Assembly: GCF_001921215.1 (NCBI RefSeq)
Contig: NZ_MSIF01000001.1
Coordinates: 372,001 to 436,000, forward strand
Source: Actinophytocola xinjiangensis
GTDB taxonomy: Bacteria > Actinomycetota > Actinomycetes > Mycobacteriales > Pseudonocardiaceae
Direction: 5' to 3'
DNA: 64,000 nt
Part shown: piece by piece, positions 8,229 to 28,419 of the stretch
Position numbering within the stretch: position 1 is the first letter of the stretch
How the letters are laid out: the number at the start of each line of letters is the position of its first letter
Position numbers and translations under genes: made by a program
Notes under the pieces: generated by a model
Seen by the model: the letters and a program-made list of their open reading frames with translations, nothing else
Database searches by the model: none
Told to the model about the DNA's origin: nothing

Positions 8229-9641
8229 TTATCCCAGATCGATCGGGTGATTTTCGGCGCGTGCCCCCGCCCGGAATTCGACGTATTCCGTCAGTGCCCG
8301 GTCGACCAGCGGCCCGGCGAGACCGGTGTAGCGCGCCGGGTCCAGCAGGTCCACCAGCGACTCCGGCGCCAGACCGGCACCGGCCAGCGCCTCGGGCAGC
8401 GGGACACCCTCGGCGACCACCCCGGCGAGCAGCTCCTTGGCCGCCGCCTTGCCGATCGTCGGCGCCAGCACGGCACCGACCCGCTCGGTCACCAGCTCCG
8501 CGCCGGTCAACCCGAGGGTGGCGGCCATCCGCTCCGGCCGCACCACCAGACCCTCGGCCAGCTCGGCCGCGCAGCCGGCGGCGCCGGCGGTCAGCCGAAG
8601 TGCCTCCCGCAGCGGCTGCCACTCCGCGTGCCACGCGCCGGCCGGCCGCTCGTCCTCGGCCAGCAGACACTGGGTGAGGACCAACGCGTGCGCCGGCACC
8701 TGCTGGGCGGCCGACACCACGAGCGTGGCCAGCACCGGGTTGCGTTTCTGCGGCATGGCGCTGGACGCGCCCCGGCCGGGCGCCGCCGGCTCGGTCAGCT
8801 CACCGATCTCGGTGCGGCTCAACGTCCGCACGTCCACCGCGAACTTGCCGAGCACGCCGGTCACCAGCGCCAGCACCGAGCCCAGGTCGGCGATCGGGGT
8901 ACGCGCGGTGTGCCAGGGCAGCACCGACACCGCGAGGCCCAGCTGGTCGGCGACCGCGCCGACCAGGGCCAGGGTGACCGCATCGGCGTCACAGCCCGGC
9001 CGGTCCAGTGCCGCGTACTCCCGGTAGGCGGCCAGCGTGCCGGCCGCCCCACCCAGCTGCACCGGCAGCCGCCCGGCCAGGTCACGCACCCTGGCCAGGG
9101 CGTCCACCACCGGCAGCAGCCACCCGGCCGCCCGCAGCCCGAAGGTCGTCGGCACGGCGTGCTGGGCGAGGGTCCGCGCGGCGACGACCGTGTCCCGGTG
9201 CGTCCCGGCGTGCCGGGCCAGGGCCGCGGCGACCCGGTCGAGGTCGGCGGCGACCTGGCCCAACGCCCGGCCGGCCAGCACCATCGTCGCCGAGTCCAGG
9301 ACGTCCTGGCTGGTGGCGCCCCGGTGGACGAACTCGGCCGCCGGCCGGTGCTCGGCGGCGACCACCGCAGTGAACGCCGGCACCAGCGCGACCACCGGGT
9401 TGGCGGCCAGCCGCGCCCGGCGCGCCAGGTCCACCAGGTCGAGCCGCTCGGCGCGCGCGGCGCCGGTGATGGCCGCCGCCGCCCACGCCGGGACCAGGCC
9501 CAGCTCGGCCTGGCCCCTGGCCAGCGCCGCCTCGACGTCGAGCATCGCCTGCAACCACGCCTCGTCGGTCAGCCCGGCCTCGGCCGGCGTACCGGCCCAG
9601 CCGGGGGCCAGCAGACCGGCATCGGTTCCGGCATCGGTCAC
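8229..9641 (-). CDS. Aspartase/fumarase-superfamily lyase, candidate nitrosuccinate lyase (CreD-like)
   Basis: A 470-residue cytosolic lyase of the class II fumarase/aspartase superfamily, closest in layout to 3-carboxymuconate cycloisomerase and adenylosuccinate lyase. Visible conserved regions are FVHRGATSQDVLDSA (first signature), the LPVQLGGAAGTLAAY region, and the flexible catalytic loop GASSAMPQKRNPV. Pairing is the strongest clue: it lies 16 bases downstream of a large flavoprotein in the same operon. In the aspartate-nitrosuccinate pathway (CreE/CreD of cremeomycin and homologues), a flavoenzyme oxidises aspartate to nitrosuccinate and an aspartase-superfamily lyase releases nitrous acid. 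The CreD assignment rests on this pairing and on gene lengths; a cycloisomerase or another C-N lyase cannot be excluded from sequence alone. Confidence 0.72.
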   Translation of the reverse strand: MTDAGTDAGLLAPGWAGTPAEAGLTDEAWLQAMLDVEAALARGQAELGLVPAWAAAAITGAARAERLDLVDLARRARLAANPVVALVPAFTAVVAAEHRPAAEFVHRGATSQDVLDSATMVLAGRALGQVAADLDRVAAALARHAGTHRDTVVAARTLAQHAVPTTFGLRAAGWLLPVVDALARVRDLAGRLPVQLGGAAGTLAAYREYAALDRPGCDADAVTLALVGAVADQLGLAVSVLPWHTARTPIADLGSVLALVTGVLGKFAVDVRTLSRTEIGELTEPAAPGRGASSAMPQKRNPVLATLVVSAAQQVPAHALVLTQCLLAEDERPAGAWHAEWQPLREALRLTAGAAGCAAELAEGLVVRPERMAATLGLTGAELVTERVGAVLAPTIGKAAAKELLAGVVAEGVPLPEALAGAGLAPESLVDLLDPARYTGLAGPLVDRALTEYVEFRAGARAENHPIDLG

Positions 9642-9657
9642 GGTTTCCTCCTTGGGG

Positions 9658-11526: not shown

Positions 11527-11562
11527 CGTGTCGGCTCCGGGAAACCGTTGTGCGGCAAGGAG

Positions 11563-11787
11563 ATGAGGGTCTGCCGGGGATGGGTCATCGCGGGAGCGCT
11601 CCTGCTCTGCGGGCTCGTGCGGCACTCCCACAGACCCCACCGGCCCCGAACCGGATACATGGCGGGAATCGGCGCGCGGACGTATCCGCCGCCGGCCGGC
11701 GGCGGTCTGTGGACCTGTCGGCGGTGCTCCCGCCGAGTCCACTTGGGACCCATCGCGGCCCATCGGCGGAGAAGGAGACCACGATGA
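11563..11787 (+). CDS. Possible small membrane/zinc-ribbon protein upstream of the ketoreductase (doubtful)
   Basis: A 74-codon frame inside the divergent promoter region. It begins with an ATG directly abutting AAGGAG, which is too close for a good ribosome-binding site, and its stop overlaps the ketoreductase start as ATGA, like the verified junctions downstream. The product would have a hydrophobic N-terminal stretch (WVIAGALLLCGLV) and a C-terminal CRRC...H...H pattern ending in an Arg run. Third-position G+C is visibly lower than in the neighbouring genes. It may equally be leader sequence with a chance frame. I do not recognise a family. Confidence 0.25.
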   Translation: MRVCRGWVIAGALLLCGLVRHSHRPHRPRTGYMAGIGARTYPPPAGGGLWTCRRCSRRVHLGPIAAHRRRRRPR

Positions 11788-12524
11788 CGGAGCGTCCGTG
11801 CGCCGTCGTGACCGGTGCGTCGCGCGGGATCGGGCGGGCGATCGCCGTCCGTCTCGCCGCCGACGGGTTCGACATCGCCTTCTGCTCGCGGTCGCTGGAC
11901 GACAACGCGGAGAAGACCCGCGCGATGGTCCAGGAACACGGCGCCCGCTGCCTGCACGAGGTCTGCGACGTCGCCGACCACGACGCGGCGCGGGCGTTCA
12001 CCGAGCACGCCGAGGAGGAACTCGGGCCGGTCGCCGCGCTGGTCAACTCCGCCGGCGTGGTCCGGGACAACGCCCTGTTCCGGATGCCGCTCGCCGAATG
12101 GGACGCGGTCGTGTCGACCAACCTCACCGGCACGTTCTCCATGTGCCGGGCGGTGGTCTACGGCATGATGCGCCGGCGCGCCGGCGCGGTGGTCAACGTG
12201 TCGTCGGTGATCGGGATCTCCGGCAACGCCATGCAGAGCAACTACGCCGCCGCCAAGGCCGGCATCAACGGGCTGACCGTGTCACTGGCCCGCGAGGTCG
12301 CCGGCTTCGGTGTCCGGGTCAACGCCATCGCCCCGGGGTTCATCGAGACCGACATGACCGCCGGCCTCGCCGACAAGCACCGCGACCGGGCGCTCGACCT
12401 GATCCCGCTGCGCCGCTTCGGCGAACCGGAGGAGGTCGCCGAGCTGGCCTCGTTCCTGGTCTCCCCGCGCGCCGGCTACCTCGTCGGCCAGGTCATCCGG
12501 ATCGACGGCGGGATGATCCTGTGA
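11784..12524 (+). CDS. 3-oxoacyl-ACP reductase (FabG-like SDR)
   Basis: A 246-residue short-chain dehydrogenase. It has the Rossmann motif TGASRGIGRA near the N-terminus, a NSAGV strand, the catalytic Ser in NVSSVIG, YAAAKAG carrying the catalytic Tyr and Lys, and the family ending VGQVIRIDGGMIL. It would use NADPH to reduce 3-ketoacyl-ACP to 3-hydroxyacyl-ACP. The start has an AAGGAG Shine-Dalgarno. It is the first clear gene of the rightward arm, and its stop overlaps the carboxyltransferase start (GTGA), so the reductase and the malonyl-CoA-forming enzymes are likely one transcript. It supplies the KR activity missing from the KS-AT-ACP protein and the free KS. Confidence 0.92.
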   Translation: MTERPCAVVTGASRGIGRAIAVRLAADGFDIAFCSRSLDDNAEKTRAMVQEHGARCLHEVCDVADHDAARAFTEHAEEELGPVAALVNSAGVVRDNALFRMPLAEWDAVVSTNLTGTFSMCRAVVYGMMRRRAGAVVNVSSVIGISGNAMQSNYAAAKAGINGLTVSLAREVAGFGVRVNAIAPGFIETDMTAGLADKHRDRALDLIPLRRFGEPEEVAELASFLVSPRAGYLVGQVIRIDGGMIL

Positions 12525-14239
12525 ACGACGAGCGTGAGCGCCGGATCGACCAGCGCCGACGAGACCTGCTGCGCCGCCTGGACGAGGTCGCGGCCGGCAC
12601 CTGGACGCGCTGCCCCGGCTGCGCGGTGGCCCTGCACCGGGACAAACTCGCCGCGCACGTCGGCGTGTGCCCGCGCTGCGGCCACCACTTCCGCCTCACC
12701 GCGCACGAACGCCTGGCCGCGCTGCTGGACCCCGGCAGCTTCACCGAGACCGCCGCCGACCTGTCCCCGGCGGACCCGCTGGGCTTCGTCGACGCCCGCC
12801 CCTACCCCGAACGGCTGCGTGCCCTCGCCGAACGCACCGGCCTGCGTGAGGCGGCCGTCTGCGGCAGCGGCACCGTCGACGGGCACCGGATCTCGGTGTG
12901 CGTGCTGGACTTCCGCTTCCAGGGCGGCAGCATGGGCGTGGTCGTGGGGGAGAAGGTCACCCGCGCGGCCGAACTCGCGCTGGCCGAACGGATCCCGCTG
13001 GTGATCTGCTCGACCTCCGGCGGCGCGCGCATGCAGGAGGGCATCTTCTCCCTGCTGCAGATGGCCAAGACCGCCGCCGCCGTGGCCCGGCTGCGCGCGG
13101 CCGGCGTGCCGTTCGTGTCGCTGCTGGCCGACCCGGTCTACGGCGGCGTGTCGGCCTCCTTCGCCACCCTCGGTGACCTCGTGGTGGCCGAGCCCGGCGC
13201 GCGGGTCGGCTTCGCCGGCCCGAAGGTGATCAGTCAGACCATCCGCCAGGAGCTGCCGCCCGGCTTCCAGACCTCGGCGTTCCTGCTGGCCCACGGGCAC
13301 GTCGACGCCGTCGTGCCGCGCCAGGAGCTGCGCGCGTTCCTCGGCCGGGTACTCGGCCTGCACGTGCCGGCCCAGCCGCGCCCGCCGCTGCCCGCGCCGC
13401 GACCCGAACCCGGCCGTACCGCCCCGGACGCGTGGACCACCGTGGGGCTCGCCCGCCACCCCGACCGACCGCACTTCGACGACTACCTGCGCCTGCTGTT
13501 CGACGACTTCGTCGAGCTGCGTGGCGACCGGTGCGACGAGGACGACCCGGCGGTCGCCGCCGGGCTCGCCCGGTTCGCCGGCGCGCCGGTCGTGCTGATC
13601 GGGCACCGCAAGGGCCGGGGCACCACCGAGAACGTCGCCCGCAACTTCGGCATGCCCGGCCCGGCCGGCTACCGCAAGGCCGTGCGGCTGATGCGCCACG
13701 CCGAACGGTTCGGCCTGCCGGTCGTCACCTTCCTGGACACCCCCGGGGCGTACCCGGGGATCCGGGCCGAGGAACGCAACCAGAGCGGCGCCATCGCCGA
13801 GTGCCTGGCCACCCTGGCCGGGCTGCGGGTGCCGGTGATCGGGGTGCTCACCGGCGAGGGCGGCAGCGGCGGCGCGCTGGCGCTGGGGGTGACCGACCGG
13901 CTGCTCGCCCTCGAACACGCCGTCTACTCGGTGATCAGCCCGGAGGGCTGCGCCACGATCCTGTTCGGCGACAGCGACCAGGCCGCGCGGGCCGCCGCCG
14001 GCCTGCGGCTGACCGCCCGCGACCTGCGCGGCTTCGGCGTCGTCGACGACCTGCTCGGCGAGCCGGGCGACGGTGCGCACACCGACCACGCCGCCACCGC
14101 CGAGGCGGTACGCCACGCGCTGTACCGCCACCTCACCGAACTGTCCCGCACACCGATCGACGTCGTGCTGGACGCGCGCCAGGCCCGGTTCCGTGGCCCG
14201 GTGTCCGACACCGTCACCGCTGGGAAGGCGATGCCGTGA
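12521..14239 (+). CDS. Acetyl-CoA carboxylase carboxyltransferase, fused beta (AccD) and alpha (AccA) subunits
   Basis: A 572-residue protein. The N-terminal half is AccD-like: a four-Cys zinc ribbon (CPGC...CPRCGHH), VLDFRFQGGSMG, then CSTSGGARMQEG and DPVYGGVSASFA. The C-terminal half (from about residue 300) is AccA-like: LFDDFVELRGDR, IGHRKGRGTTENVARNFGMP, FLDTPGAYPG and GEGGSGGALALG with its oxyanion-hole glycines. The two halves form the transferase that moves CO2 from carboxybiotin to acetyl-CoA, giving malonyl-CoA. Start GTG at 12521 overlaps the upstream stop, and the stop overlaps the BCCP start. Together with the next two genes it makes a complete four-function acetyl-CoA carboxylase. 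E. coli encodes the two subunits separately; here they are one chain. Confidence 0.93.
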   Translation: MNDERERRIDQRRRDLLRRLDEVAAGTWTRCPGCAVALHRDKLAAHVGVCPRCGHHFRLTAHERLAALLDPGSFTETAADLSPADPLGFVDARPYPERLRALAERTGLREAAVCGSGTVDGHRISVCVLDFRFQGGSMGVVVGEKVTRAAELALAERIPLVICSTSGGARMQEGIFSLLQMAKTAAAVARLRAAGVPFVSLLADPVYGGVSASFATLGDLVVAEPGARVGFAGPKVISQTIRQELPPGFQTSAFLLAHGHVDAVVPRQELRAFLGRVLGLHVPAQPRPPLPAPRPEPGRTAPDAWTTVGLARHPDRPHFDDYLRLLFDDFVELRGDRCDEDDPAVAAGLARFAGAPVVLIGHRKGRGTTENVARNFGMPGPAGYRKAVRLMRHAERFGLPVVTFLDTPGAYPGIRAEERNQSGAIAECLATLAGLRVPVIGVLTGEGGSGGALALGVTDRLLALEHAVYSVISPEGCATILFGDSDQAARAAAGLRLTARDLRGFGVVDDLLGEPGDGAHTDHAATAEAVRHALYRHLTELSRTPIDVVLDARQARFRGPVSDTVTAGKAMP

Positions 14240-14694
14240 CCACGAACGAGAAACCGTTCCCGATGACCGACGAGCGGTTCACCGTGCTGCTCGGCCAGGC
14301 CAGGGACCTGGCCAGGCTGGTCGACACCACCGGCGTGCGGCGCATCGCGCTGTCGCTGGGCCAACTGCGGCTGGAGATCGAGGCCGGCGCGGCGCCGGTG
14401 ACGATCACCGGGGCGCCACTGCCGCCGGCACCACCGCCGGAGGCCGACCTCGACGGGCACGTGATGTCCGCGCCGCTGGTCGGCGTGTTCTTCCGGGCGC
14501 CGGAGCCGGGCGCGCCGCCGTTCGTCGAGGCCGGCGACCGGGTGGAGGTCGGGCAGCGGCTGGCGATCGTCGAGGCGATGAAGATGATGAACGACGTCGT
14601 CGCCGACCGGGCCGGTGTGGTGCGCACGATTCACGTCACCAACGGCGAGGTCGTCGAGCACGGCCAGCCCCTGTTCACCGTCGAACCGGCGTGA
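14236..14694 (+). CDS. accB: Biotin carboxyl carrier protein of acetyl-CoA carboxylase
   Basis: A 152-residue BCCP. An N-terminal helical region (ERFTVLLGQARDLARLVD) and a short Pro/Ala linker are followed by a biotinyl domain with the biotinylation motif EAMKMMNDV, about 37 residues from the C-terminus, ending in HGQPLFTVEP. The carrier shuttles CO2 between biotin carboxylase and carboxyltransferase. Starts (GTG) and stops overlap those of both neighbours, giving tight translational coupling of the carboxylase subunits. Confidence 0.93.
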   Translation: MTTNEKPFPMTDERFTVLLGQARDLARLVDTTGVRRIALSLGQLRLEIEAGAAPVTITGAPLPPAPPPEADLDGHVMSAPLVGVFFRAPEPGAPPFVEAGDRVEVGQRLAIVEAMKMMNDVVADRAGVVRTIHVTNGEVVEHGQPLFTVEPA

Positions 14695-16079
14695 GCGCCG
14701 TGTTCGACAAGATCCTGATCTGCAACCGGGGCGAGATCGCCCTGCGGGTGCTGCGCACCTGCCAGCGGCTGGGCATCGCCACCGTGGTCGCGCACTCCGA
14801 GGCCGACCGCGACACCCCGGCTGTGCGGCTGGCCGACGAGACCGTGACCCTGGGCCCTGGCGCGGCCGAGCACAGCTACCTCAACGTCCCCGCCGTGCTC
14901 TACGCCTGCGCCCGCACCGGCGCCGACGCCGTCCACCCCGGCTACGGCTTCCTGTCCGAGGACGCGCTGTTCGCCCGCTGCTGCGCCGAACTTGGCATCA
15001 CGTTCATCGGGCCGCCCGCCGAGCTGATCGGCCTGATGGGCGACAAGGTCGCCGCCCGCAACGCGGCCGCGGCCGCCGGGGTGCCGCTGCCGCCGGGCAC
15101 CCAGGACCCGCTGGAGGACCTCAACGACGCCCTGCGTCAGGCCGAGACACTGGGCTACCCGCTGATCCTCAAGGCCGCCGCCGGCGGGGGCGGGCGCGGG
15201 ATCGCCGTCGTCGCCGACCGGGACGCGCTGGTCAGGAGTTTCCCCGAGGTGCGGCACAACGCGCGCACGCTGTTCCAGGACGGCCGGGTGCACCTGGAGC
15301 GGTTCGTGCCGGGCGCCCGGCACGTCGAGGTCCAGGTGCTCGGCGACCGGCACGGCACCGTCGTGCACCTCGGCGAGCGGGACTGCTCGGTGCAGCGGCG
15401 CTGGCAGAAGCTCGTCGAGGAGTCACCCTCGGGCGTGCTGACCGAGGACCTGCGGCGCCGGATCGGCGAGACCGCGGTCGGCCTGGCGCGCTCGGTCGGC
15501 TACCACAGCGCGGGCACCGTGGAGTTCCTCGTCGACCAGGCCGGCGAGTTCTACTTCATCGAGCTCAACCCGCGGATCCAGGTCGAGCACCCGGTCACCG
15601 AGGTCCGCACCGGCATCGACATCGTCGAGCAGATGATCCGGGTCGCCGCCGGCGAGCCGCTCGGGTTCACCCAGGACGACGTCGTGCTCTCCGGCCACTC
15701 GGTGCAGTGCCGGGTCAACGCCGAGGACCCGGCCGACGGCTGGCGCGGCTCGGTCGGCGAGGTCGTGCGGTTCACCCCGCCGGCCGGCGACGGTGTACGG
15801 GTCGACACCCACGTCCACCCCGGCCACCACGTGCCCCCGTTCTACGACTCGCTGCTGGCCAAGGTCATCGTGCACGCCCCGACCAGGGACGAGGCGCTGG
15901 ACCGGATGGCGCGGGCGCTGACCGAGTTCGACTGTGCCGGCGTCACCACCACCATCGGCTTCCACCGCCAGCTGGTGGACCACCCCGTCTTCCGCGCCGA
16001 CCGCCACAGCGTGGACTTCCTGGCGCGCCATCTCGACGACCACGGAGCGCTGCGTGCCGCCCCGGAGGTCGCGCCATGA
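14691..16079 (+). CDS. accC: Biotin carboxylase subunit of acetyl-CoA carboxylase
   Basis: A 462-residue ATP-grasp enzyme that carboxylates biotin on BCCP using ATP and bicarbonate. Visible features: the N-terminal ILICNRGEIALRVLRTC, VHPGYGFLSED, GDKVAARN, the glycine-rich ATP loop AAAGGGGRGI, the metal/ATP region GTVEFLVD...FYFIELNPRIQVEHPVTE, and the C-terminal SLLAKVIVHA. The length is typical for stand-alone AccC (about 450). The GTG start overlaps the BCCP stop, and its stop overlaps the next start (ATGA). A dedicated carboxylase in the cluster implies a high malonyl-CoA demand for the adjacent synthases. Confidence 0.94.
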   Translation: MSAVFDKILICNRGEIALRVLRTCQRLGIATVVAHSEADRDTPAVRLADETVTLGPGAAEHSYLNVPAVLYACARTGADAVHPGYGFLSEDALFARCCAELGITFIGPPAELIGLMGDKVAARNAAAAAGVPLPPGTQDPLEDLNDALRQAETLGYPLILKAAAGGGGRGIAVVADRDALVRSFPEVRHNARTLFQDGRVHLERFVPGARHVEVQVLGDRHGTVVHLGERDCSVQRRWQKLVEESPSGVLTEDLRRRIGETAVGLARSVGYHSAGTVEFLVDQAGEFYFIELNPRIQVEHPVTEVRTGIDIVEQMIRVAAGEPLGFTQDDVVLSGHSVQCRVNAEDPADGWRGSVGEVVRFTPPAGDGVRVDTHVHPGHHVPPFYDSLLAKVIVHAPTRDEALDRMARALTEFDCAGVTTTIGFHRQLVDHPVFRADRHSVDFLARHLDDHGALRAAPEVAP

Positions 16080-17725: not shown

Positions 17726-17751
17726 ACCGACGAATCCCCCGAGGAGCCAAC

Positions 17752-18864
17752 GTGGTGTTCATGGACATGGAGCGCAGGGCGCTCGACGAGTACCTGCCCG
17801 GGCTGGCCGACCGCCTCGCCGGCTTCGAGCTGACCGAGCTGGAGACCGACGGCAACCCCGGTATCGAGGCGTTCCGGGCGTGCGGTGGCGCGAAACTCGT
17901 CGTTCCGGAACGGTTCGGCGGCAGTGGAGCGTCCATTGTGGACGCCGCGCGGGTGCTGCGGGAACTGGCGGCGCTCGCCCCGTCCACCGCCGTCGCCGCG
18001 ATGATGCACCAGTTCTCGGTGACCACCCTGGTCGCCGCCGTCGAGCAGGACCCGCAGGAGTTCGCCGCCTTCCCCGACCTGCTGGCCGCCATCTCCGGCA
18101 AGCGGATGCTGCTCGCCTCCGGGTTCGCCGAGGGGATGCGCGGGCAGAACATCCTGGAGCCGACCCTGCGCGCCGAGCGGACCGACGGCGGCTACCTGCT
18201 CAACGGCGTGAAGAAACCGTGCAGCCTGTCCGGGTCGATGGACCTGCTGACCGCCAGCGTCGCGGTCCCCGGCCCCGACGGCACGCCCGCCCTGGGCATC
18301 GCGCTCATCCCGGCCGACGCCGAGGGCCTGACCGTGGCGCCGTTCTGGTCGAGCTTCGCGCTGGCCGGCGCGGAGAGCAACGAGGTCCGGCTCGACGACG
18401 TGCTCCTCGCGCCGGAACAACTGGTCAACCCGCCGCTGGAGAAGGCGCTGCCGCTGCAGATGCTCGGCCTGGTGCACTTCCAGCTCTCGGTGTGCGCGGT
18501 CTACACCGGCGTGGTCAGCGCCCTGGTACGCCGGGTGCTCGCCCAGTCGCGCGGCTCGGTCACCGACCGCGCCGACCTCATCGTGGAGATCGAGTCCGCC
18601 GCCCTGACCGCCGAGGCGGTCGCCAGGCGGGTGCTCGCCGACGAACCCGTCGACCGCGCGCTCGCCGCCGTCCAGGTCGCCCGGTTCGCCACCCAGGAGT
18701 CGCTGGGCCGGGTGGTCAACCGGGCGGTCGAACTGCTCGGCGGCATGGCGTACGTGTCGTCCTCGGACGTCGGCTATCTGGCCGCCGCCGCACACGGCAT
18801 CGCCTTCCACCCGCCGTCGCGCACCAGCGCCGCCGGCGCCATCGTCGAGAGCTTCCCGGCATGA
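17752..18864 (+). CDS. Acyl-CoA (or acyl-ACP) dehydrogenase family flavoprotein
   Basis: A 370-residue protein of the acyl-CoA dehydrogenase fold. It has an N-terminal helical domain, a middle beta domain (ASGFAEGMRGQNILEPTLRAERTDGGYLLNGVKKPCSLSG) and a C-terminal helical bundle with FATQESLGRVVNRAVELLGGMAY. The very C-terminal segment is shorter than in housekeeping beta-oxidation enzymes, and I could not identify the usual catalytic Glu with confidence. The GTG start has GAGGAG five bases upstream; the stop overlaps the aminotransferase start (ATGA). A plausible role is introducing a double bond into, or oxidising, a carrier-bound fatty chain; alternatively it could oxidise nitrogen or act on an amine, as some members of this superfamily do. 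Confidence 0.85.
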   Translation: MVFMDMERRALDEYLPGLADRLAGFELTELETDGNPGIEAFRACGGAKLVVPERFGGSGASIVDAARVLRELAALAPSTAVAAMMHQFSVTTLVAAVEQDPQEFAAFPDLLAAISGKRMLLASGFAEGMRGQNILEPTLRAERTDGGYLLNGVKKPCSLSGSMDLLTASVAVPGPDGTPALGIALIPADAEGLTVAPFWSSFALAGAESNEVRLDDVLLAPEQLVNPPLEKALPLQMLGLVHFQLSVCAVYTGVVSALVRRVLAQSRGSVTDRADLIVEIESAALTAEAVARRVLADEPVDRALAAVQVARFATQESLGRVVNRAVELLGGMAYVSSSDVGYLAAAAHGIAFHPPSRTSAAGAIVESFPA

Positions 18865-20129
18865 GCACCGTCGTCGAACCGGGCCTGGAACCCGACGTCG
18901 AACAGGAGACGCTGCGCCGCTGCCGCGCCCACCTCGGGCGCGGCCGGGCGGCACTGGCCGAACTGGTCGGCGGCGAGGTGGAGGCGTCCTCCGACGGGGC
19001 CTGGGTGCGCACCACCAGCGGCCGTGAACTGCTCAACTGCGGCGGCTACGGCGTGCTCATCATGGGCTCGCGCCACCCCAGGGTGGTGGCCGAGGTCGCC
19101 GCCCAGCTCGCCCGCAACCCCGTCGCCACCCGGCTGCTGCTCGAACCGACCGTGGCCGCCGCGGCCGAGGCACTGGTGGCCGTCGCGCCGCCGGGACTGA
19201 CCAAGGTCCACTTCGCCAACTCGGGCGCCGAGGCCGTCGAGGCCGCGCTGAAAATGGCCCGTACCAAGGGAAAGCGCCGGCTGGTGTCGATGCTCGGCGG
19301 CTACCACGGCAAGACCCTGGGCGCGCTGTCGGTGACCTCGCGGCCCTGCTTCCAGGAGCCGTTCCGCCCGCTGCTGCCCGACGTCACCCACGTCCCGTTC
19401 GGCGACGCCGCCGCCCTGGACCACGAGCTGCGCCGCGACCCCACCCCCGCGTGCGTGGTGGTCGAACCGGTGCAGGGCGAGGCCGGGGTCGTGCTGGCGC
19501 CACCCGGCTACCTGGCCGAGGTCCAGGGAGTCTGCCACGACCGCGACGCCTTCCTCGTGCTCGACGAGGTGCAGACCGGCCTCGGCCGCCTCGGCCACTG
19601 GTGGGGCGCCGACGCCGAACGGGTCACCCCGGACGCGCTGCTGTCCGGCAAGGCGCTCGGCGGCGGGATCATGCCGGTCTCGGCCGTGCTCGCCACCCCG
19701 GACGCGTTCGCCGCGTTCGACCGCGACCCGCTGCTGCACACCTCGACGTTCTCCGGCAGCCCGCTGGGCATGGCCGCGGTCCTCGGCGCGCTGTCGGCCA
19801 TCGCCGAGGACGGCCTGGTCGAGCGGGCCGCCGCGCTCGGTGAGCTGCTGTGCGCCGAACTCGGCGAGGTCGTCACCTCGACCATGGGCGGCCTGGTGCG
19901 CGAGGTCCGGGGCGCCGGCCTGCTGATCGGCCTGGAGTTCACCCGCCCGGACGTGGCCACCGAACTGCTGGTCGAGCTGAACAACGAGGGCGTGGTCGTC
20001 AACACCTCGCTCAACTCGTCGTGCACCGTGCGGCTCACCCCGCCGGCCGTGCTCGACGGCGCCGAGGTGCGTTTCCTGCTGGACGCGTTCGCCAGGGCCA
20101 GCGCGACCGTGGCGGGCTGGCACCGATGA
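18861..20129 (+). CDS. Class III (omega-type) PLP aminotransferase
   Basis: A 422-residue PLP enzyme of the ornithine/4-aminobutyrate aminotransferase group. Visible are HFANSGAEAVEAALK for phosphate binding, GGYHGKTLGALSVT, VVVEPVQGEAGV, the PLP-ring Asp in LVLDEVQTGLGRLG, and the Schiff-base Lys in LSGKALGGGIMP. Family members transfer amino groups between terminal amines and aldehydes or ketones. Coming after a potential acyl-thioester reductase, it could convert a fatty aldehyde into a terminal amine, as described for reductive release plus transamination in coelimycin-type pathways. It is coupled to the acyl-CoA dehydrogenase gene (ATGA). Confidence 0.92.
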   Translation: MSTVVEPGLEPDVEQETLRRCRAHLGRGRAALAELVGGEVEASSDGAWVRTTSGRELLNCGGYGVLIMGSRHPRVVAEVAAQLARNPVATRLLLEPTVAAAAEALVAVAPPGLTKVHFANSGAEAVEAALKMARTKGKRRLVSMLGGYHGKTLGALSVTSRPCFQEPFRPLLPDVTHVPFGDAAALDHELRRDPTPACVVVEPVQGEAGVVLAPPGYLAEVQGVCHDRDAFLVLDEVQTGLGRLGHWWGADAERVTPDALLSGKALGGGIMPVSAVLATPDAFAAFDRDPLLHTSTFSGSPLGMAAVLGALSAIAEDGLVERAAALGELLCAELGEVVTSTMGGLVREVRGAGLLIGLEFTRPDVATELLVELNNEGVVVNTSLNSSCTVRLTPPAVLDGAEVRFLLDAFARASATVAGWHR

Positions 20130-20145
20130 GTGAGGAGCAGACCCG

Positions 20146-20634
20146 ATGAGAAGCACCCAGCTGTGGGCGGTCGTCCCGTGGGTGGCGCCGGACGTGGCGT
20201 TCGGCCGGCTGGTCGACGCGACCGTGTTTCCCGCGCTGTCCGAGGAGATCCGCTCCATCGACGAGGCCAGGCCCCCGGCCCCCGGCGTGCCCCGGCACAC
20301 CGAGTGGGCGGTGGCCTTCCGGCGCGGCGTGCTGCGCTGGACCCAGTGGGAGAACATCGACCACGTCCGGCGCGCCGCCGTGTTCGGTCAGGTCGACGGG
20401 GACTTCGCCGAGTTCGGCGGGGCCTGGCGCGTGCAGCCGGAGGACGAGGGCTGCCGGGTCGTGTTCGAGGTGACCTACGACTTCGGGATCGAGAGCCTGG
20501 CCAGCGCCATGGACCCGATCGCCGAACGCCTGCTGCTGCGAGTGGCCGGCGACATCCTGCGAGGCGTTTTCGGCCCGGAGACCGAGTTGCGGGTCGACCG
20601 GGACCACCACACCACGATTGCGGAGGTTGGCTGA
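20146..20634 (+). CDS. SRPBCC/START-like protein, possible polyketide cyclase or aromatase
   Basis: A 162-residue single-domain protein with the alternating pattern of the helix-grip (SRPBCC) fold: an N-terminal strand (TQLWAVVPWVAPDVAFGRLVDA), central strands such as LRWTQWENIDHVRR and GCRVVFEVTYDFG, and a long C-terminal helix around AERLLLRVAGDILRGVF. Members bind hydrophobic ligands and include polyketide aromatases/cyclases and coenzyme Q-binding proteins. No catalytic residues can be assigned. A GAGGAG lies about eight bases before the ATG, and the stop overlaps the ACP start (TGATG). Its place between aminotransferase and ACP suggests it handles an ACP-bound or hydrophobic intermediate. 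Confidence 0.72.
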   Translation: MRSTQLWAVVPWVAPDVAFGRLVDATVFPALSEEIRSIDEARPPAPGVPRHTEWAVAFRRGVLRWTQWENIDHVRRAAVFGQVDGDFAEFGGAWRVQPEDEGCRVVFEVTYDFGIESLASAMDPIAERLLLRVAGDILRGVFGPETELRVDRDHHTTIAEVG

Positions 20635-20873
20635 TGTCTGCCGTGCTGAAGGACCGTCTGTCGGATCTGCTGGTCAACCGGTTCGGCGTGCCGCAGGAGG
20701 AACTGCGGGACGACGCCCGGCTCACCGACCTGGACCTGGACTCCCTGGCCCTGGTCGAGCTGGGCATGGTCGTGGAGAACGAGTTCGGCGTGAAGATCCG
20801 CGAGGACGACGTCTCACCCGAGGACACCATCGCCGAGCTGGCCGTCGTCATCGCCGGCAAGGGCGCCTCCTGA
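20634..20873 (+). CDS. Acyl carrier protein
   Basis: A 79-residue free-standing ACP with the four-helix pattern and the phosphopantetheine attachment motif DLDLDSLALVEL (modified Ser in DSL), followed by the acidic helix II and EFGVKIREDD. Start and stop overlap the SRPBCC and KS genes. With the KS, KR, MaoC and InhA-like genes it forms a complete dissociated fatty-acid-type elongation set. No phosphopantetheinyl transferase is seen in the window, so activation must come from elsewhere. Confidence 0.93.
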   Translation: MSAVLKDRLSDLLVNRFGVPQEELRDDARLTDLDLDSLALVELGMVVENEFGVKIREDDVSPEDTIAELAVVIAGKGAS

Positions 20874-22090
20874 TGAGCTTCGAGCTGGCCGTGACCGGAC
20901 TGGGTATGGTCAGCCCGGCCGGGATCGGCGTGGCGGCCAGTTGGCCGCGCATCGTGCGCGGCGAGCCGACCGCCACGCCGGACCCGGCGCTCGCCGGGCT
21001 GCCGGTGGACTTCAGCTGCCGGGTCCCGGACTTCGACCCGACGGAGCTGCTCAACCCGCGCACGGTGTGGCGCCAGTCGCGGTGCACCCAGCTGGCGCTG
21101 CTCGCGGCCGGGGAGGCCATCGCCGACGCCGGCCTGGACCACCGCACGTGGGACGCGACCAGGGTCGGCGTGGTCATCGGCAACTGTCTGGGTGGGACGG
21201 CCACCTTCGAGCAACAGCACGGCGCGCTGCACGAGCAGGGCACCGACGCCGTGACCCCGCTGCTGATCCCGCTGATCGGCCAGAGCAGCCCGTCGGGCGG
21301 CATCGCCATCGAGTTCAACGCCAAGGGTCCGAGCTGGAGCGTCGGCGCCGCCTGCGCCTCCGGCTCGCTGGCGCTGGGCTCCGCCCGCGAACTGCTGCGG
21401 CAGGGGCTGTGTGACGTCGTCATCGCCGGCGGCACCGAGTCCGCACTCAGCCCGACGATCGTCACCGGGTTCGCCAGGATGGGCGCGTTGTCCACCCGGC
21501 GCTCGGACCCGGGCGCGGCGTCACGGCCCTTCGACGTCGACCGGGACGGGTTCGTCTCGGCCGAGGGCGCCGGCGTGGTGGTGCTGGAACGCGCCGAGGA
21601 CGCCGTGGCCAGGCGGGCCCACGTGCACGCCAGGATCAGCGGCTACGCGATGACCACCGACTCCTACCACATCAGCGCCCCGCGCCCGGACGGCGCTGAG
21701 GTCGAGCGGGCCGTCCGCGAGGCCCTGGCCGACGCCGGGGTCGGGGTGTCCGACGTGGACCACGTCAACGCGCACGGCACGTCGACGAAACTCAACGACC
21801 TCAACGAGTCCGCCGTGCTGCGCCGGGTCCTGGGCGACCGGCCGGCGGTGACGTCGGTGAAGGGCGCGCTCGGGCACTCGCTGGCCGCGGCCGGCGCCAT
21901 CGAGACCGTGTGCACCGTGCTGTCGGTCGAGCACGGCGTCGTCCCGGCGACCGCGAACCTCGACAGCCAGGACCCGGAGATCGACCTCGACCTGGTGGCG
22001 AAGGTGCCGAGGGAGATCCCGGTCCGCGCCGCCATCAACAACTCGTTCGGATTCGGCGGTGCCAACACCGTCGTCGTCGTCACGGGGTGA
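20873..22090 (+). CDS. Beta-ketoacyl-ACP synthase II (FabF-like), catalytically complete
   Basis: A 405-residue condensing enzyme. It keeps the Cys/His/His triad: GAACASGSLALG with the nucleophilic Cys, VNAHGTSTKLND, and KGALGHSLAAAGAIE. The tail NNSFGFGGANTVVV is the usual FabF ending. It elongates acyl chains by decarboxylative condensation with malonyl-ACP. There is no chain-length-factor partner next to it, so it resembles fatty-acid KS enzymes rather than the aromatic type II pair. It contrasts with the Cys-less KS in the KS-AT-ACP protein of the opposite arm and is probably the true elongating KS, or one of two. Its ATG overlaps the ACP stop. Confidence 0.93.
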   Translation: MSFELAVTGLGMVSPAGIGVAASWPRIVRGEPTATPDPALAGLPVDFSCRVPDFDPTELLNPRTVWRQSRCTQLALLAAGEAIADAGLDHRTWDATRVGVVIGNCLGGTATFEQQHGALHEQGTDAVTPLLIPLIGQSSPSGGIAIEFNAKGPSWSVGAACASGSLALGSARELLRQGLCDVVIAGGTESALSPTIVTGFARMGALSTRRSDPGAASRPFDVDRDGFVSAEGAGVVVLERAEDAVARRAHVHARISGYAMTTDSYHISAPRPDGAEVERAVREALADAGVGVSDVDHVNAHGTSTKLNDLNESAVLRRVLGDRPAVTSVKGALGHSLAAAGAIETVCTVLSVEHGVVPATANLDSQDPEIDLDLVAKVPREIPVRAAINNSFGFGGANTVVVVTG

Positions 22091-22098
22091 GCCACCAC

Positions 22099-22887
22099 AT
22101 GTTGTTGCAGGACAAGCGCATTCTCGTCACCGGGGTGCTGACCGAGAACTCCATCGCCGCCTCGGTGGCCAGACTCGCCCAACAGCAGGGCGCCGAGGTC
22201 GTGCTCACCGGGCACGGTCGCGCGCTGTCGCTGACCCGCCTGGTCGCCCAGCGGCTGCCCAGGACGTGCGACGTGCTGGAGATGGACGTCACCAGCCCCG
22301 AGCAGGTCGACGCGACCGCCGCCGAGCTGGACCGCCGGTGGGGCGCGGTCGACGGCGTGGTGCACGCCATCGGGTTCGCCCCGCCCTCGGCCATGGGCGG
22401 CGGGTTCCTCACCGCACCCTGGGAGGACGTGGCCACCGCGCTGCGGATCTCCACCTACTCCTTCGCCGCGCTGGGCAGGGCCTTCGGCCCGCTGCTGGGA
22501 AAGTCGGAGCACGGCAGCCTGGTCGGCCTGGACTTCGACGCCCGGCAGGCCTGGCCCGGCTACGACTGGATGGGCGTGGCCAAGGCCGGTCTGGAGAGCT
22601 GCTGCCGTTACCTGGCCGCCGCGCTCGGCTCCCAGGGCACCCGGGTCAACCTGGTCGCCGCCGGCCCGCTGCGGACCACCGCGATGCGCGCCATCGGCGG
22701 CGCCGACCGGTTGGCCTCGCTGTGGGAGCGCAACGCCCCGCTGGGCTGGGACGCCGACGACGCGTCCCCGGTCGGCCAGGTGGTGTGCGCGCTGCTCTCG
22801 TCGTGGCTGCCGGCCGTCACCGGTGAGGTGCTGCACGTCGACGGCGGCGCGCACGCCGTCGCCTTCGCCCCGGAGCTGGCCGGATGA
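22099..22887 (+). CDS. Enoyl-ACP reductase, InhA/FabI-like
   Basis: A 262-residue NADH-dependent SDR with striking resemblance to mycobacterial InhA. It shares ILVTGVLTENSIAASVARLAQQQGA, HAIGFAPPSAM, the catalytic region DFDARQAWPGYDWMGVAKAG with Tyr-x6-Lys, LVAAGPLRTTAM, and an ending with LSSWLPAVTGEVLHVDGGAHA. It reduces enoyl-ACP to saturated acyl-ACP. The ATG at 22099 has GGGGTGA eight bases upstream; an in-frame GTG at 22087 overlapping the KS stop is an alternative start. Together with the PfaD-like protein the cluster therefore has two unrelated enoyl reductases. A cluster copy of an InhA-type enzyme could also serve as a resistant variant, although nothing here shows that. Confidence 0.9.
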   Translation: MLLQDKRILVTGVLTENSIAASVARLAQQQGAEVVLTGHGRALSLTRLVAQRLPRTCDVLEMDVTSPEQVDATAAELDRRWGAVDGVVHAIGFAPPSAMGGGFLTAPWEDVATALRISTYSFAALGRAFGPLLGKSEHGSLVGLDFDARQAWPGYDWMGVAKAGLESCCRYLAAALGSQGTRVNLVAAGPLRTTAMRAIGGADRLASLWERNAPLGWDADDASPVGQVVCALLSSWLPAVTGEVLHVDGGAHAVAFAPELAG

Positions 22888-23363
22888 GCCAGTACGCCCG
22901 CCTCTCCGAGCTCACCGGCCGCGTCGGCACCCACCTCGGCCACAGCGACTGGTGGCCGATCGACCAGGACATGATCGACCGGTTCGCCGACCTCACCCAC
23001 GACCGCCAGTGGTTGCACGTCGACCGGGAACGGGCCGCCGCCGGACCCTTCGGCGCCACCATCGCCCACGGCTACCTGATCGTGTCGCTGCTGGCGGACA
23101 TGGTGCTGGGCATGCTGGCGGTCGACGAGGTCGACCTGATCGTGAACAAGGGCCTGGACCGGTTGCGGTTCAAGGCGCCGGTGCGCTGCGGCGACCGGGT
23201 GCGGGCCAGGGTGGAGCTGGTGTCGGCGACCCCCCGGGTCTACGGCTACACCGAACTGCTGCTCGGCGCCGTGGTGGAGACCGGCAGCGGCACGGTCGCC
23301 ATGACCGGCCAGGTGCGCATGCTGATGCACGTCCCCGAGCACGTGCCGGCCCCGACCGGATGA
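22884..23363 (+). CDS. MaoC-like (R)-hydratase/dehydratase
   Basis: A 159-residue single hot-dog protein. The MaoC hydratase motif is clear: an Asp/His pair in FADLTHDRQWLHVD followed by FGATIAHGYLIVSLL. It would dehydrate (R)-3-hydroxyacyl-ACP formed by the FabG-like reductase, giving the substrate of the enoyl reductase. Its ATG overlaps the enoyl reductase stop (ATGA). This is the last gene of the tightly coupled chain that starts with the ketoreductase; a 75-base gap follows. Confidence 0.92.
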   Translation: MSQYARLSELTGRVGTHLGHSDWWPIDQDMIDRFADLTHDRQWLHVDRERAAAGPFGATIAHGYLIVSLLADMVLGMLAVDEVDLIVNKGLDRLRFKAPVRCGDRVRARVELVSATPRVYGYTELLLGAVVETGSGTVAMTGQVRMLMHVPEHVPAPTG

Positions 23364-23438
23364 ACCGGATGAACTGGCGACCCGCCGACCGGCCCAGCAC
23401 AATGGCGCTGACCTTGACCCGTCGGGAAGGCGGAGCCG

Positions 23439-24191
23439 GTGCCGGAGGGAGGCACCTGGTCGGGGCTGGGCGCCCTCGGACCGGGCTGGACGCTGTACGT
23501 GGGTGCCGTCGGCGCGACCGGCGACCACGCCCACCACGCGGTCCAGGTCCTGCTGGCCGACACCCCGGTGACCCTGCGCGACGCCGCCGGCCACCGGCAC
23601 CGCTGCCGGGCGGCGACGATTCCCCCGAACGCACCGCACGGGATCACCGAGGGCAGCCCGCGCGCGGTGATGGTCCTGCTCGACCCGGTCAGCGCCGCCG
23701 GCCGGGCCGCGGCCCACCGGTCCACGGCCGACGCCCGCACGTGGGGCGCGCCCTGGCTGCCCGAGGTCGCCGACCTCGTGCCCGGCCGGGACGTCGACCC
23801 GCCGGCCGTCGTCACCCGCCTGCGCACCGCGCTCACGGGAGCGGCCAGCCCACCGAACCCGGCGGTGCACCCGGCGTTGACGAAGGCCATGGCGCACCTG
23901 CCGACCGTGCTCGACCGCACGGTCCGGCTGACCGAGGTCAGCGCCGAGGTCGGCCTGTCGCCCGGCCGGCTGCGGCACCTGTTCACCGCCGAGCTCGGCC
24001 TGCCGTTCCGCCGCTACGTGCTGTGGCTGCGCCTGCAACGCGCGCTGCGCTGCGCGGCGACCGGAGCGTCGCTGACCGAGGCGGCGCACGCCGCCGGGTT
24101 CGCCGACTCGTCCCACCTGACCCACGTGACCCGACGGATGTTCGGGCTCGCGCCCTCCGAGCTGGCCAGGGCCGTCCAGCCGGTCGGCTGA
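23439..24191 (+). CDS. AraC-family transcriptional regulator
   Basis: A 250-residue regulator. The N-terminal ~110 residues form a cupin-like sensor (ATGDHAHHAVQVLL, then RCRAATIPPNAPHGI). The C-terminal ~100 residues are the double helix-turn-helix of AraC proteins: LTEVSAEVGLSPGRLRHLFTAELGLPFRRYVLWLRLQRA and LTEAAHAAGFADSSHLTHVTRRMFGLAPSE. It begins with GTG and lies 75 bases after the MaoC gene. Probably a cluster-situated regulator. A palindrome just downstream (24214-24236) could be its site or a terminator. Confidence 0.9.
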   Translation: MPEGGTWSGLGALGPGWTLYVGAVGATGDHAHHAVQVLLADTPVTLRDAAGHRHRCRAATIPPNAPHGITEGSPRAVMVLLDPVSAAGRAAAHRSTADARTWGAPWLPEVADLVPGRDVDPPAVVTRLRTALTGAASPPNPAVHPALTKAMAHLPTVLDRTVRLTEVSAEVGLSPGRLRHLFTAELGLPFRRYVLWLRLQRALRCAATGASLTEAAHAAGFADSSHLTHVTRRMFGLAPSELARAVQPVG

Positions 24192-24213
24192 CCCACCAGC
24201 CCCTTCGTACAAG

Positions 24214-24236
24214 TGTCGCGCCGAGTGTGCGCGACA
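24214..24236. terminator. Inverted repeat between the AraC regulator and ANL ligase genes
   Basis: TGTCGCGC and GCGCGACA form a perfect 8-bp dyad around a 7-base centre, 22 bases after the regulator stop and 35 bases before the ligase start. There is no T-tract. It can fold as a transcript hairpin (attenuator or terminator), or it could be the operator of a dimeric regulator. Confidence 0.4.
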
Positions 24237-24270
24237 GACTCGATCATGCGCCGTGAAAGGGAGCGTCCGC

Positions 24271-25956
24271 ATGTCCCACGTAACCGAGGTTCCCGAGTTC
24301 CTCCGGCGCTACGCGCCCACCCGAGGCAAACGGCGGCTCACCCCGTTCTCGCGCGTGCCACCGACCGGCAACATCGCCGAGGTCTGGAACAGCGCCGCCA
24401 GCCGCAACCCCTACCAGCGCATCACCCTCGACCGTGCCCCGGACATCGACCCGACCGGCCCGACCGTCGGCACCTACGCGCAGTGGGCGCGGTTCGTCGA
24501 GGAGGTCGCCGAATGGCTGCACGAGGCCGGGGTCCGGCCGTGGGACCGGGTGGCGGTGCTCAAGGCCAACCACTTCGACGTCGCCCTGCTCGGCTGTGCC
24601 GCCGCCCGGCTTGGCGCGGTGCCCGCGCTGCTGGCCTGGACGCACCCGCCGGAGTTCGCCCAGCCGATGCTGCGCCGGCTGGAGCGCCCGTTCCTGATCG
24701 CCGACCAGGAACGGCTCAAGCTCGCCGGGATGGACCCCGAGGCGGTCGCCGCGCTGACCAGGCGCACGATCGTCGTCGACGGCGCCGGTGACCGCGCCGA
24801 CCTGGTGTCGCTGGACGACCTCAAGGGCGCCGGGCGGGCCCCGTTCCGGCCGCGCGCCGACGACGAGCCGATGGTCGTCACGCACACCTCCGGCACCACC
24901 GGCGTGCCGAAGCTGGTGATGCACTCGGCCGAGTCGGCGCTGGCGCTGAGCCTGGTCGAGGCCGAGCGCTGGCCGCTGATCGGGCTGCGCGGCTCCGACG
25001 TTCTCGCCTACTGCGACCCGTTCTGCCACCAGCGCACCACCACCGGCATGATCGCCATGGCGACCGTGGCGCCCCGGATGACGATGCTGTCCGACCCGGA
25101 CTCGCCCAAGGTCGCCGAGCTGCTGGCCGCCGACCCGCCGACCGCGGTGGAGACGCTGCCCAACATCTACCTGCACTGGGAGCCGCTGGCCCGCGATCCC
25201 CGCCGGCTGTTCCGCAACGTGCGGCTCTACGTCAACTCCTTCGACGCCATCCACACCCGCACCATCCGGACGTTCCTGGACGCCTCGTCGCGCCGGATGC
25301 CGGTGTGGTGGCAGTCGTGGAGCCAGAGCGAGGCCGGCGCGATGGTGATCCGCCCGTACCTCAGGGCGTCGGTGCGCCGGCGCGGTGTCCGCCCGCCGGT
25401 CACCCAGGTCCTCGGCTGGCCGGTGCCCGGCCTGTGCCGGGCGCGCGCGGTCGACCCGGACACCGGCCAGCCGGTCGCGCCGGGCGAGGTCGGCGTGGTG
25501 GAGATCAGCCAGCCCGGCCGCTGCCTGGGCTACGTCGGCGAGCAGCACCGCCACGACGCCAAGTGCCGGGGCTGGTGGTGGAACACCGGCGACCTCGGCA
25601 CGGTCAGCCGGCTGGGCGCGATCCGCCTGGTGGACCGGGAGATCGACCGCATCGAGGGCGGCAGCGCGCTGGAGCTGGAGGACGTGCTGCTCGACCGTCT
25701 GCCGCAGGCCACGGAGATCGTCATCCTGCCGCGCGGCGGTGACCTGCCGGTGCCGGTGCTGAGCACCCAGGACGACCAGCCGCTCGACCAGCTGGCCTGG
25801 GCCCGCGCGGTCCGCGACCTGCCCCCGCTGGCCGACCCGGTGCACATCGACTGGCTGGACTGGGAGCGCACGGCCACCTGGAAGATCCGCCGCGTGGCGA
25901 TGCGCGAGCGGCTGTTCGACGGAGCACGGGCCATCGGCACCGGCCGCTGGACCTGA
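24271..25956 (+). CDS. ANL-superfamily AMP-forming ligase (acyl-CoA ligase-like; diazotase-like role possible)
   Basis: A 561-residue adenylating enzyme. The P-loop THTSGTTGVPKLVMH is followed by an aromatic/polar core (PNIYLHWEPL), WWQSWSQSEAGAM (the A5-like region), NTGDLGTVSRLGAIRLVDREIDRI (A7/A8 hinge) and a near-terminal Lys in TATWKIRRVAMRE that could be the A10 lysine. The usual reaction is carboxylate + ATP giving acyl-AMP, then transfer to CoA or a carrier. ATP-dependent diazotases and N-N-forming ligases working with nitrite in cremeomycin- and triacsin-type pathways belong to this same superfamily, which is relevant because a CreE/CreD-like pair is present. The ATG at 24271 has an AAAGGGAG upstream; a GTG at 24253 is an alternative. 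Substrate unknown. Confidence 0.85.
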   Translation: MSHVTEVPEFLRRYAPTRGKRRLTPFSRVPPTGNIAEVWNSAASRNPYQRITLDRAPDIDPTGPTVGTYAQWARFVEEVAEWLHEAGVRPWDRVAVLKANHFDVALLGCAAARLGAVPALLAWTHPPEFAQPMLRRLERPFLIADQERLKLAGMDPEAVAALTRRTIVVDGAGDRADLVSLDDLKGAGRAPFRPRADDEPMVVTHTSGTTGVPKLVMHSAESALALSLVEAERWPLIGLRGSDVLAYCDPFCHQRTTTGMIAMATVAPRMTMLSDPDSPKVAELLAADPPTAVETLPNIYLHWEPLARDPRRLFRNVRLYVNSFDAIHTRTIRTFLDASSRRMPVWWQSWSQSEAGAMVIRPYLRASVRRRGVRPPVTQVLGWPVPGLCRARAVDPDTGQPVAPGEVGVVEISQPGRCLGYVGEQHRHDAKCRGWWWNTGDLGTVSRLGAIRLVDREIDRIEGGSALELEDVLLDRLPQATEIVILPRGGDLPVPVLSTQDDQPLDQLAWARAVRDLPPLADPVHIDWLDWERTATWKIRRVAMRERLFDGARAIGTGRWT

Positions 25957-28313: not shown

Positions 28314-28419
28314 CCGGCCCGCCTCACCCCGTTCCTGGACAAAGATCGTTCCCGTAGGTGAAGCTGTTTCGGTCATCCTTCGTAGTCTGTTGCTTGTTCA
28401 CAGTGTGGGAGGCCGTTCC

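Follow-up and report, generated by a model that had tools for sequence, protein, structure and literature searches.

A candidate lipid N-nitrosohydroxylamine gene cluster of Actinophytocola xinjiangensis carries nitrite machinery in place of azoxy genes

Clusters for the aliphatic azoxy compounds valanimycin (vlm) and azodyrecin (ady) contain genes of the kinds VlmA, VlmR, VlmJ, VlmK, VlmO and VlmB, and for azodyrecin a dehydrogenase (Ady2), a transaminase (Ady4) and a VlmH/VlmR-type hydroxylase (Ady3/Ady10) are proposed to act before VlmA, VlmO and VlmB (PMC9379638). Another close system is alanosine, an N-nitrosohydroxylamine, for which the sections consulted describe a putative acyl-CoA dehydrogenase (ACAD)-type N-hydroxylase, CreE/CreD homologues and a cupin-AraC protein (PMC11705231, section 4.3.2; PMC7347517). 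According to the same section of PMC11705231, the enzymes proposed to form the N-nitrosohydroxylamine groups of alanosine, fragin, gramibactin and chalkophomycin are still under investigation. Here we analysed a 64,000-nucleotide stretch (contig C1, 372001-436000) of the 9.5 Mb genome of the soil actinobacterium A. xinjiangensis, hereafter the window, in which a CreE/CreD pair lies beside an AMP-forming ANL ligase and an alkylhydroxylamine module. We read the span from about 976 to 28313 as one biosynthetic cluster for a lipid N-nitrosohydroxylamine (alkyl diazeniumdiolate), with a probability of about one half.

The window shares with the azodyrecin and valanimycin clusters an aldehyde-forming dehydrogenase, a pyridoxal phosphate-dependent transaminase and a VlmH-type N-hydroxylase, and related genomes keep VlmA/VlmO/VlmB-like genes adjacent to these. 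In contrast, no VlmA-, VlmO- or VlmB-like match above the thresholds was found in the window and its 20 kb left flank. CreE, CreD and the ligase are carried where related clusters have VlmA/VlmO, and a carboxylase of its own and PfaABD-like genes come in addition. We compared 38 VlmH-type loci, made up of the same-family matches, four class-level loci (from an aldehyde dehydrogenase (ALDH) search of 394 genomes) and the G043 locus. VlmA-like genes were found in 28 of them and VlmO-like genes in 28; ten lacked a VlmO-like gene and nine had neither. A ligase of the window type occurred in three of the 38 (the window, G265 and G043), all among the nine without VlmA/VlmO (hypergeometric probability 0.010, uncorrected for relatedness). 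CreE was present in the window only (1/38, within the stretches examined). Among the 33 same-family VlmH-type matches, only that of the window had a CreE match (E <= 1e-80) within 90 kb along the same contig (coordinates compared by eye). Genes of the neighbour loci were picked by a GC-position heuristic, which missed some genes; the VlmB-like gene in G043:C426 was detected by tblastn, and in G005 only VlmA was found, the contig ending there.

In a midpoint-rooted tree of the concatenated module (34 loci), the window nested with 14 loci holding VlmA-like genes (support 100/100) and G265 was placed elsewhere. Since the two lie apart, the ligase seems to have joined azoxy-type modules at least twice. 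The cluster is distinctive in carrying nitrite machinery where azoxy clusters have their N-N-forming genes, and it is a new combination assembled from known modules, not described in the titles or abstract openings of the open-licence papers searched. The initial annotation had placed the novelty in the joining of polyunsaturated fatty acid synthase-like genes, a dedicated carboxylase and the CreE/CreD-like pair. The pair is indeed distinctive, but the Pfa-like genes and the carboxylase are not: the G126 locus, with the same module, holds a PfaA-like gene and acetyl-CoA carboxylase genes within the 38 kb retrieved. PfaA-like matches were found in other module loci too, though some of these may be ordinary type I polyketide synthases.

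The swap might alter the route and leave the product class as it is, with a nitrite-derived N-N bond later reduced or rearranged to give an azoxy or hydrazine lipid. The entire module before N-N formation is common to azoxy-type clusters, which is consistent with this alternative. We consider it quite unlikely, as VlmA-, VlmO- and VlmB-like genes are missing above the thresholds in the stretch given above and a scan of the cluster genes showed no obvious N-N reductase. A triacsin-type pathway was also rejected: no hydrazine-synthetase-like gene was noticed in general scans of the cluster genes, among which no search aimed at one was made.

By homology and context, the ALDH-fold, aminotransferase, ACAD-fold and SRPBCC genes of the window make up the alkylhydroxylamine module of aliphatic azoxy clusters. 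The first three were 44-68% identical to their counterparts in loci with VlmA/VlmO-like genes, and they fit the order of chemistry proposed for azodyrecin. ACAD-type matches (E <= 1e-40) numbered 33 in 29 of 249 same-family genomes, one of them in the window and another on contig C24 of the same genome. Of the 38 VlmH-type loci, 34 had the aminotransferase, 33 the SRPBCC gene and 32 the ALDH gene. Neighbours in related loci included LPG_synthase_C (VlmA family), flavin reductase, DAGK and MmgE/PrpD above the Pfam gathering thresholds, and DUF4260 and AurF as weak matches only. Valanimycin and azodyrecin clusters are made up of these same kinds of genes. In the DUF4260-like family, D51, H82, H110 and D114 were conserved in 14/14 clustered sequences; these residue numbers are reported as essential for VlmO in the part of the review consulted (PMC11705231). 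In G265, where no ALDH match was found, a NAD_binding_4 (thioester-reductase-like) protein lies between the ACAD-type gene and the aminotransferase; standing in the stead of ALDH, it fits the window ALDH as an acyl reductase. The second module of the own genome (C24, about 84.7-93.8 kb; L102, L103) has VlmA-, VlmO- and VlmB-like genes and is likely a true azoxy cluster; its contig ends there.

The initial annotation had linked the pair to fatty-chain and amine genes, which holds, but it overlooked the key VlmH/Ady3-type ACAD-fold gene. The profile of this family (15 members) scored best with DszC (72.7 bits), followed by a 'FAD-dependent oxidoreductase' (57.0), the first acyl-CoA dehydrogenase (54.1) and the nitrososynthase DnmZ (45.7), and the window sequence alone matched an acyl-CoA dehydrogenase best (54 bits). 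At the C-terminal end, 20 of 22 aligned sequences have FHPP and the rest LFHPP/YHPP variants or similar. We take this end to stand where many dehydrogenase families carry the catalytic Glu, and the dehydrogenase base is probably replaced. An ordinary acyl-CoA dehydrogenase was rejected on the weak Pfam scores and on the family profile, which was nearest to monooxygenases. We propose the gene as a putative VlmH/Ady3-type alkylamine N-hydroxylase.

For the nitrite source, the lyase and flavoprotein ORFs described initially, 470 and 622 aa with a 16-bp gap, were reproduced in their coordinates (Table 1); the length of 622 aa assumes an internal ATG start, the longest ORF reaching 11763. The best NCBIfam model of the lyase was nitrosuccinate lyase NF052556 (600 bits, E 2.9e-180), followed by cycloisomerases (347 and 339 bits), and its best PDB match was CreD 5xny (445 bits, against 254 bits for a cycloisomerase). 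On these scores a cycloisomerase or an adenylosuccinate lyase, the grouping that the initial annotation had named as fatal to its idea, was rejected. The flavoprotein contains NAD_binding_9, and its sole PDB match at E <= 0.001 was 8cp2, 'FAD-binding protein' (693 bits, residues 3-603), which we take to be aspartate N-oxygenase. The CreE/CreD assignment thus agrees with both sets of matches. Of 67 named loci fetched with the CreE query alone, 50 had CreD matching at more than 110 bits in the stretch retrieved, and some of the other 17 were cut by contig ends; the CreE-CreD pairing is therefore not chance. The CreE rows nearest to that of the window also sit in loci with CreD, and both window proteins have their closest relatives in Kutzneria, Allokutzneria and Lentzea loci. 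A second CreD-like gene exists in the same genome (C13:81586-82899, L012); it scores 558 bits with the nitrosuccinate lyase model, and no CreE match was seen in the surrounding 32 kb.

The ligase contains TSGTTGVPK, Glu360, TGD and Lys544, which we take to be the ANL adenylation motifs, and all are conserved in a 15-row alignment. In a midpoint-rooted tree, from which duplicate loci (L001-L010, L022) and matches of fewer than 380 columns were left out, it fell in a 29-row clade (support 100/99), some of whose members lie next to CreE and which is sister to the group with AvaA6/CmaA6-type diazotases. Inside this clade the window, G265 and G043 ligases formed a 100/100 group; the latter two, the nearest relatives, likewise lie near a VlmH-type gene and without VlmA/VlmO. 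Ligases of this group are rare (E <= 1e-140): they were found in two of the 249 same-family genomes (the own genome and G265) and one of the 394 class genomes (the own), with G043 among 60 relatives. The best single-sequence PDB match was 8ztz, titled ATP-dependent diazotase CmaA6 (71.5 bits), and with the structure model (mean predicted local distance difference test (pLDDT) score 82) CmaA6 chains took Foldseek ranks 1-6 and Tri17 rank 45. These matches and the clade position suggest that the ligase is probably of the nitrite-coupling kind, as first proposed. AvaA6, CmaA6, CreM and Tri17 are nitrite-dependent ANL enzymes found with CreE/CreD, and the window ligase has CmaA6 and Tri17 among its nearest solved structures. 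It differs from the AvaA6-type ligases of Kutzneria loci in identity (about 25%), in its separate clade and in its expected acceptor, a hydroxylamine. AvaA6 itself was rejected as its identity: it scored 77 bits with the AvaA6 diazotase model NF058622 (cut-off 975), compared with 1093 bits for a Kutzneria viridogrisea ligase of the other group.

The position of the clade beside the diazotases, and CmaA6 as best Foldseek match, would also suit a ligase that nitrosates a primary alkylamine to a diazo or diazonium group, either kept or lost as N2 (diazotisation-dependent deamination), with the ACAD-fold protein only desaturating the chain; TamT is reportedly proposed to act in this last way. This is unlikely, for the ACAD-fold family profile puts flavin monooxygenases first, the relatives of the protein sit with VlmA/VlmO-like genes in azoxy-type loci, and simple aliphatic diazonium ions are known to be unstable. 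The initial annotation had suggested a lipid-like amine carrying an N-N, N-nitroso or diazo group. Its fatty and amine parts fit, but the VlmH-type alkylhydroxylamine module favours an N-nitrosohydroxylamine over an amine with a simple N-nitroso or diazo group.

The association of the ligase clade with CreE extends to other genomes. Of the 26 clade matches listed at about 292 bits or more among the 60 relatives (two near 167 bits were excluded), seven lie within 20 kb of CreE (at least 54% identity), or six of 25 without the window, and a rough estimate of the expected number is 0.16. Among these matches, the clade occurred in 7/8 CreE-bearing genomes and 6/52 others (Fisher 3e-5). In the 67 CreE-fetched loci, a ligase-clade match above 150 bits was found in 13 and an aminotransferase match of 145-216 bits in three, and none gave more than 100 bits for ALDH, ACAD-type or SRPBCC. 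The two gene sets of the window might be independent neighbours, CreE/CreD with the Pfa-like genes serving one pathway and the alkylamine genes another, which would suit their opposite strands and the closest CreE/CreD relatives in Kutzneria, Allokutzneria and Lentzea loci, some with AvaA6-type ligases (L032). However, the association of the ligase clade with CreE is far above chance and the ligase itself lies in the alkylamine operon, which makes independent neighbours very improbable. In seven other loci (L040, L047, L048, L052, L057, L067 and L029, six of them with CreE), a ligase-clade gene occurs with PhzE-like and mostly also DAHP-synthase-like genes (by eye), which suggests nitrite coupling to aminochorismate-derived aromatics. 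L044 (Kitasatospora sp. MAA4), possibly another lipid N-N cluster, holds CreE and a ligase-clade gene together with genes for a second AMP ligase, an acyl-adenylating-like ligase, an acyl-CoA dehydrogenase and a diiron-like protein.

The comparison with alanosine, made by description only, raises the question of which protein couples nitrite. Both systems have an ACAD-type N-hydroxylase candidate and a CreE/CreD nitrite source (by homology and context in the window). In alanosine the substrate is diaminopropionate instead of a lipid amine, and the review section names no ANL ligase there. The ligase could be an ordinary acyl- or amide-forming enzyme, and nitrite could be joined to the hydroxylamine by another protein, for example the AraC-type protein (compare AlnA) or the SRPBCC protein (compare HamE). 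The section consulted proposes for alanosine an ACAD-type hydroxylase, CreD/CreE homologues and the cupin-AraC protein AlnA together (PMC11705231), HamE of the fragin cluster is predicted to be a polyketide cyclase/dehydrase, and the ligase-clade profile scores best against a structure named FadD. Against this, BLAST gave no match for the AraC-type protein in any other locus searched, the ligase-VlmH loci of G265 and G043 among them, azoxy-type loci contain SRPBCC proteins too, and the role of AlnA is itself putative in that section. The AraC helix-turn-helix (HTH) domain is present (HTH_18), and the model of the protein, whose N-terminal half may be a cupin, is of low confidence (mean pLDDT 47). 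We regard coupling by a protein other than the ligase as rather unlikely. Fragin (ham), as far as the source describes it, resembles the window in its diazeniumdiolate product and in having transaminase, reductase and polyketide-cyclase-like proteins, and differs in being based on a nonribosomal peptide synthetase, with an AurF-like oxygenase and a heme-oxygenase-like protein.

Several results weigh against a nitrite-dependent route to a lipid N-nitrosohydroxylamine. The lyase score of 600 bits is below the curated cut-off of NF052556 (650), and the replacement of the base in the ACAD-fold enzyme is deduced from a general dehydrogenase motif. The ligase stays far under the AvaA6 cut-off and scores higher with the general long-chain-fatty-acid-CoA ligase model (130 bits). 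Its clade profile gave 9xb8, 'Fatty-acid-CoA ligase FadD', first in the PDB (178 bits; Tri17 159, CmaA6 137, others at most 133), so its nearest kin differs by method, CmaA6 by single sequence and Foldseek and FadD by profile. Of the clade matches listed, 19/26 are not within 20 kb of CreE, and the clade is still present in the 6/52 genomes without a CreE match. The G265 genome has no CreE at 54% identity or more and only 37-40% matches on other contigs. No VlmR-like flavin reductase above the threshold was found in the window or the 20 kb left flank; four Flavin_Reduct genes lie elsewhere in the genome, and a VlmR-like reductase is present in just 10/38 VlmH-type loci. Finally, six of the nine loci without VlmA/VlmO also lack the ligase, so VlmA/VlmO loss does not require it. 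Five of these six carry an MMPL gene, another type of locus. L155 (G062), L164 (G150), L165 (G113) and L168 (G238) are VlmH-type modules with MMPL and without VlmA, VlmO and ligase, pointing to another use of the alkylhydroxylamine; the two examined more closely, L155 and L164, also encode a beta-propeller-like protein.

In the pathway that we propose, the dedicated acetyl-CoA carboxylase, the PfaABD-like proteins and the FabG/MaoC/FabI/FabF-like enzymes would build an acyl-ACP (ACP, acyl carrier protein), which the ALDH-fold enzyme would convert to an aldehyde and the class-III aminotransferase to an alkylamine. The ACAD-fold flavoenzyme would hydroxylate the amine nitrogen, and these last three steps are modelled on the azodyrecin proposal. 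By homology, CreE would convert aspartate to nitrosuccinate, from which CreD would release nitrite. The ligase would then activate nitrite with ATP and couple it to the alkylhydroxylamine, R-NHOH giving R-N(OH)-N=O, a step standing in for the VlmA/VlmO(/VlmB) azoxy route of related clusters, and the MMPL protein would export the product. Tri17 is reported in section 4.4 of the review to adenylate nitrite and to take varied nitrogen nucleophiles, which makes a hydroxylamine acceptor plausible for the window ligase.

Table 1. Genes of the proposed cluster, with positions in the window.
Feature	Position	Strand	Basis
PfaD-like enoyl reductase	976..2499	-	TIGR02814 549 bits, above cut-off 449
PfaB-like acyltransferase	2496..4340	-	TIGR02816 100 bits, below cut-off 144; Acyl_transf_1 24 bits, below gathering
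PfaA-like KS-AT-ACP (ketosynthase, acyltransferase, ACP)	4337..7489	-	Pfam KS, AT, ACP; TIGR02813 750 bits, below cut-off 1010
Extracytoplasmic function (ECF)-type sigma factor	7502..8143	-	TIGR02937 69 bits
CreD-type nitrosuccinate lyase, 470 aa	8229..9641	-	NCBIfam and PDB profile scores
CreE-type flavoprotein, 622 aa	9658..11526	-	Pfam NAD_binding_9; PDB 8cp2; nearest CreE rows
FabG-like ketoreductase, start approximate	11784..12524	+	TIGR01830 297.0 bits vs cut-off 297.75
AccD-AccA fused carboxyltransferase	12521..14239	+	TIGR00515 (AccD) 349 bits, TIGR00513 (AccA) 331 bits, both above cut-off
Biotin carboxyl carrier protein	14236..14694	+	110.9 bits vs cut-off 115.2; EAMKM motif present
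Biotin carboxylase AccC	14691..16079	+	PRK08591 614 bits, above cut-off 597
ALDH-fold enzyme, proposed acyl-thioester reductase (Ady2-like)	16076..17725	+	Pfam Aldedh
ACAD-fold flavoenzyme, proposed alkylamine N-hydroxylase (VlmH/Ady3-like)	17752..18864	+	Family profile and neighbourhood
Class-III aminotransferase (Ady4-like)	18861..20129	+	Family models; LLSGKALGG motif
SRPBCC/polyketide-cyclase-like protein	20146..20634	+	Pfam; match in 33/38 VlmH-type loci
Acyl carrier protein	20634..20873	+	Pfam
FabF-like ketosynthase	20870..22090	+	Family model
FabI-like enoyl reductase, start approximate	22090..22887	+	PRK07889 363 bits, above cut-off 299
MaoC-like dehydratase	22884..23363	+	Pfam
AraC-type HTH protein, beta-rich N-terminal half	23439..24191	+	HTH_18; cupin nature suspected only
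AMP-forming ANL ligase, proposed nitrite-hydroxylamine coupling enzyme	24253..25956	+	Motifs, tree, PDB and Foldseek matches
MMPL-family exporter	25980..28313	+	Family match

The left arm of the cluster, on the minus strand, runs from the PfaD-like gene to CreE, and the right arm, on the plus strand, from FabG to the MMPL gene; the PhoD-type phosphatase gene at 28390 was taken as the border. The PfaA-like ketosynthase has the motif VDATSASS, which presumably puts Ser at the usual active-site Cys, and the enzyme may be non-condensing or decarboxylating. Beyond the cluster, two PhoD-type phosphatases lie close together (28390-29994(+) and 35087-36652(-)), with transport genes after them, and 30389-31426(+) encodes a WXG100-like protein with a CdiA_C domain, likely a contact-dependent or type VII-secreted toxin.

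Nitrosoxacins are long-chain alkyl N-nitrosohydroxylamines from Streptomyces. Nitrosoxacins A-C are cited, in the part of the literature consulted, among the diazeniumdiolates as 5-lipoxygenase inhibitors, and no gene cluster for them was found in the literature searched. We tentatively propose that the window, G265 and G043 ligases may carry out an undescribed ATP-dependent coupling of nitrite to alkylhydroxylamines, giving diazeniumdiolates, that they were recruited at least twice in replacement of VlmA/VlmO, and that the window may encode the biosynthesis of nitrosoxacin-like lipid diazeniumdiolates. The product, as predicted from the gene content, would be oily, bind metals and contain a nitrogen-nitrogen bond. 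Because one cluster unites a nitrite-activating ligase candidate with a nitrite source dedicated to it and with an alkylhydroxylamine module, the N-N step becomes testable with few purified proteins. If the proposal is true, it would add a new reaction to a useful enzyme family, provide a genetic basis for lipid diazeniumdiolates, which are metal chelators and possible nitric oxide (NO) or nitroxyl (HNO) donors, and give an example of how exchange of one module can re-route an azoxy pathway.

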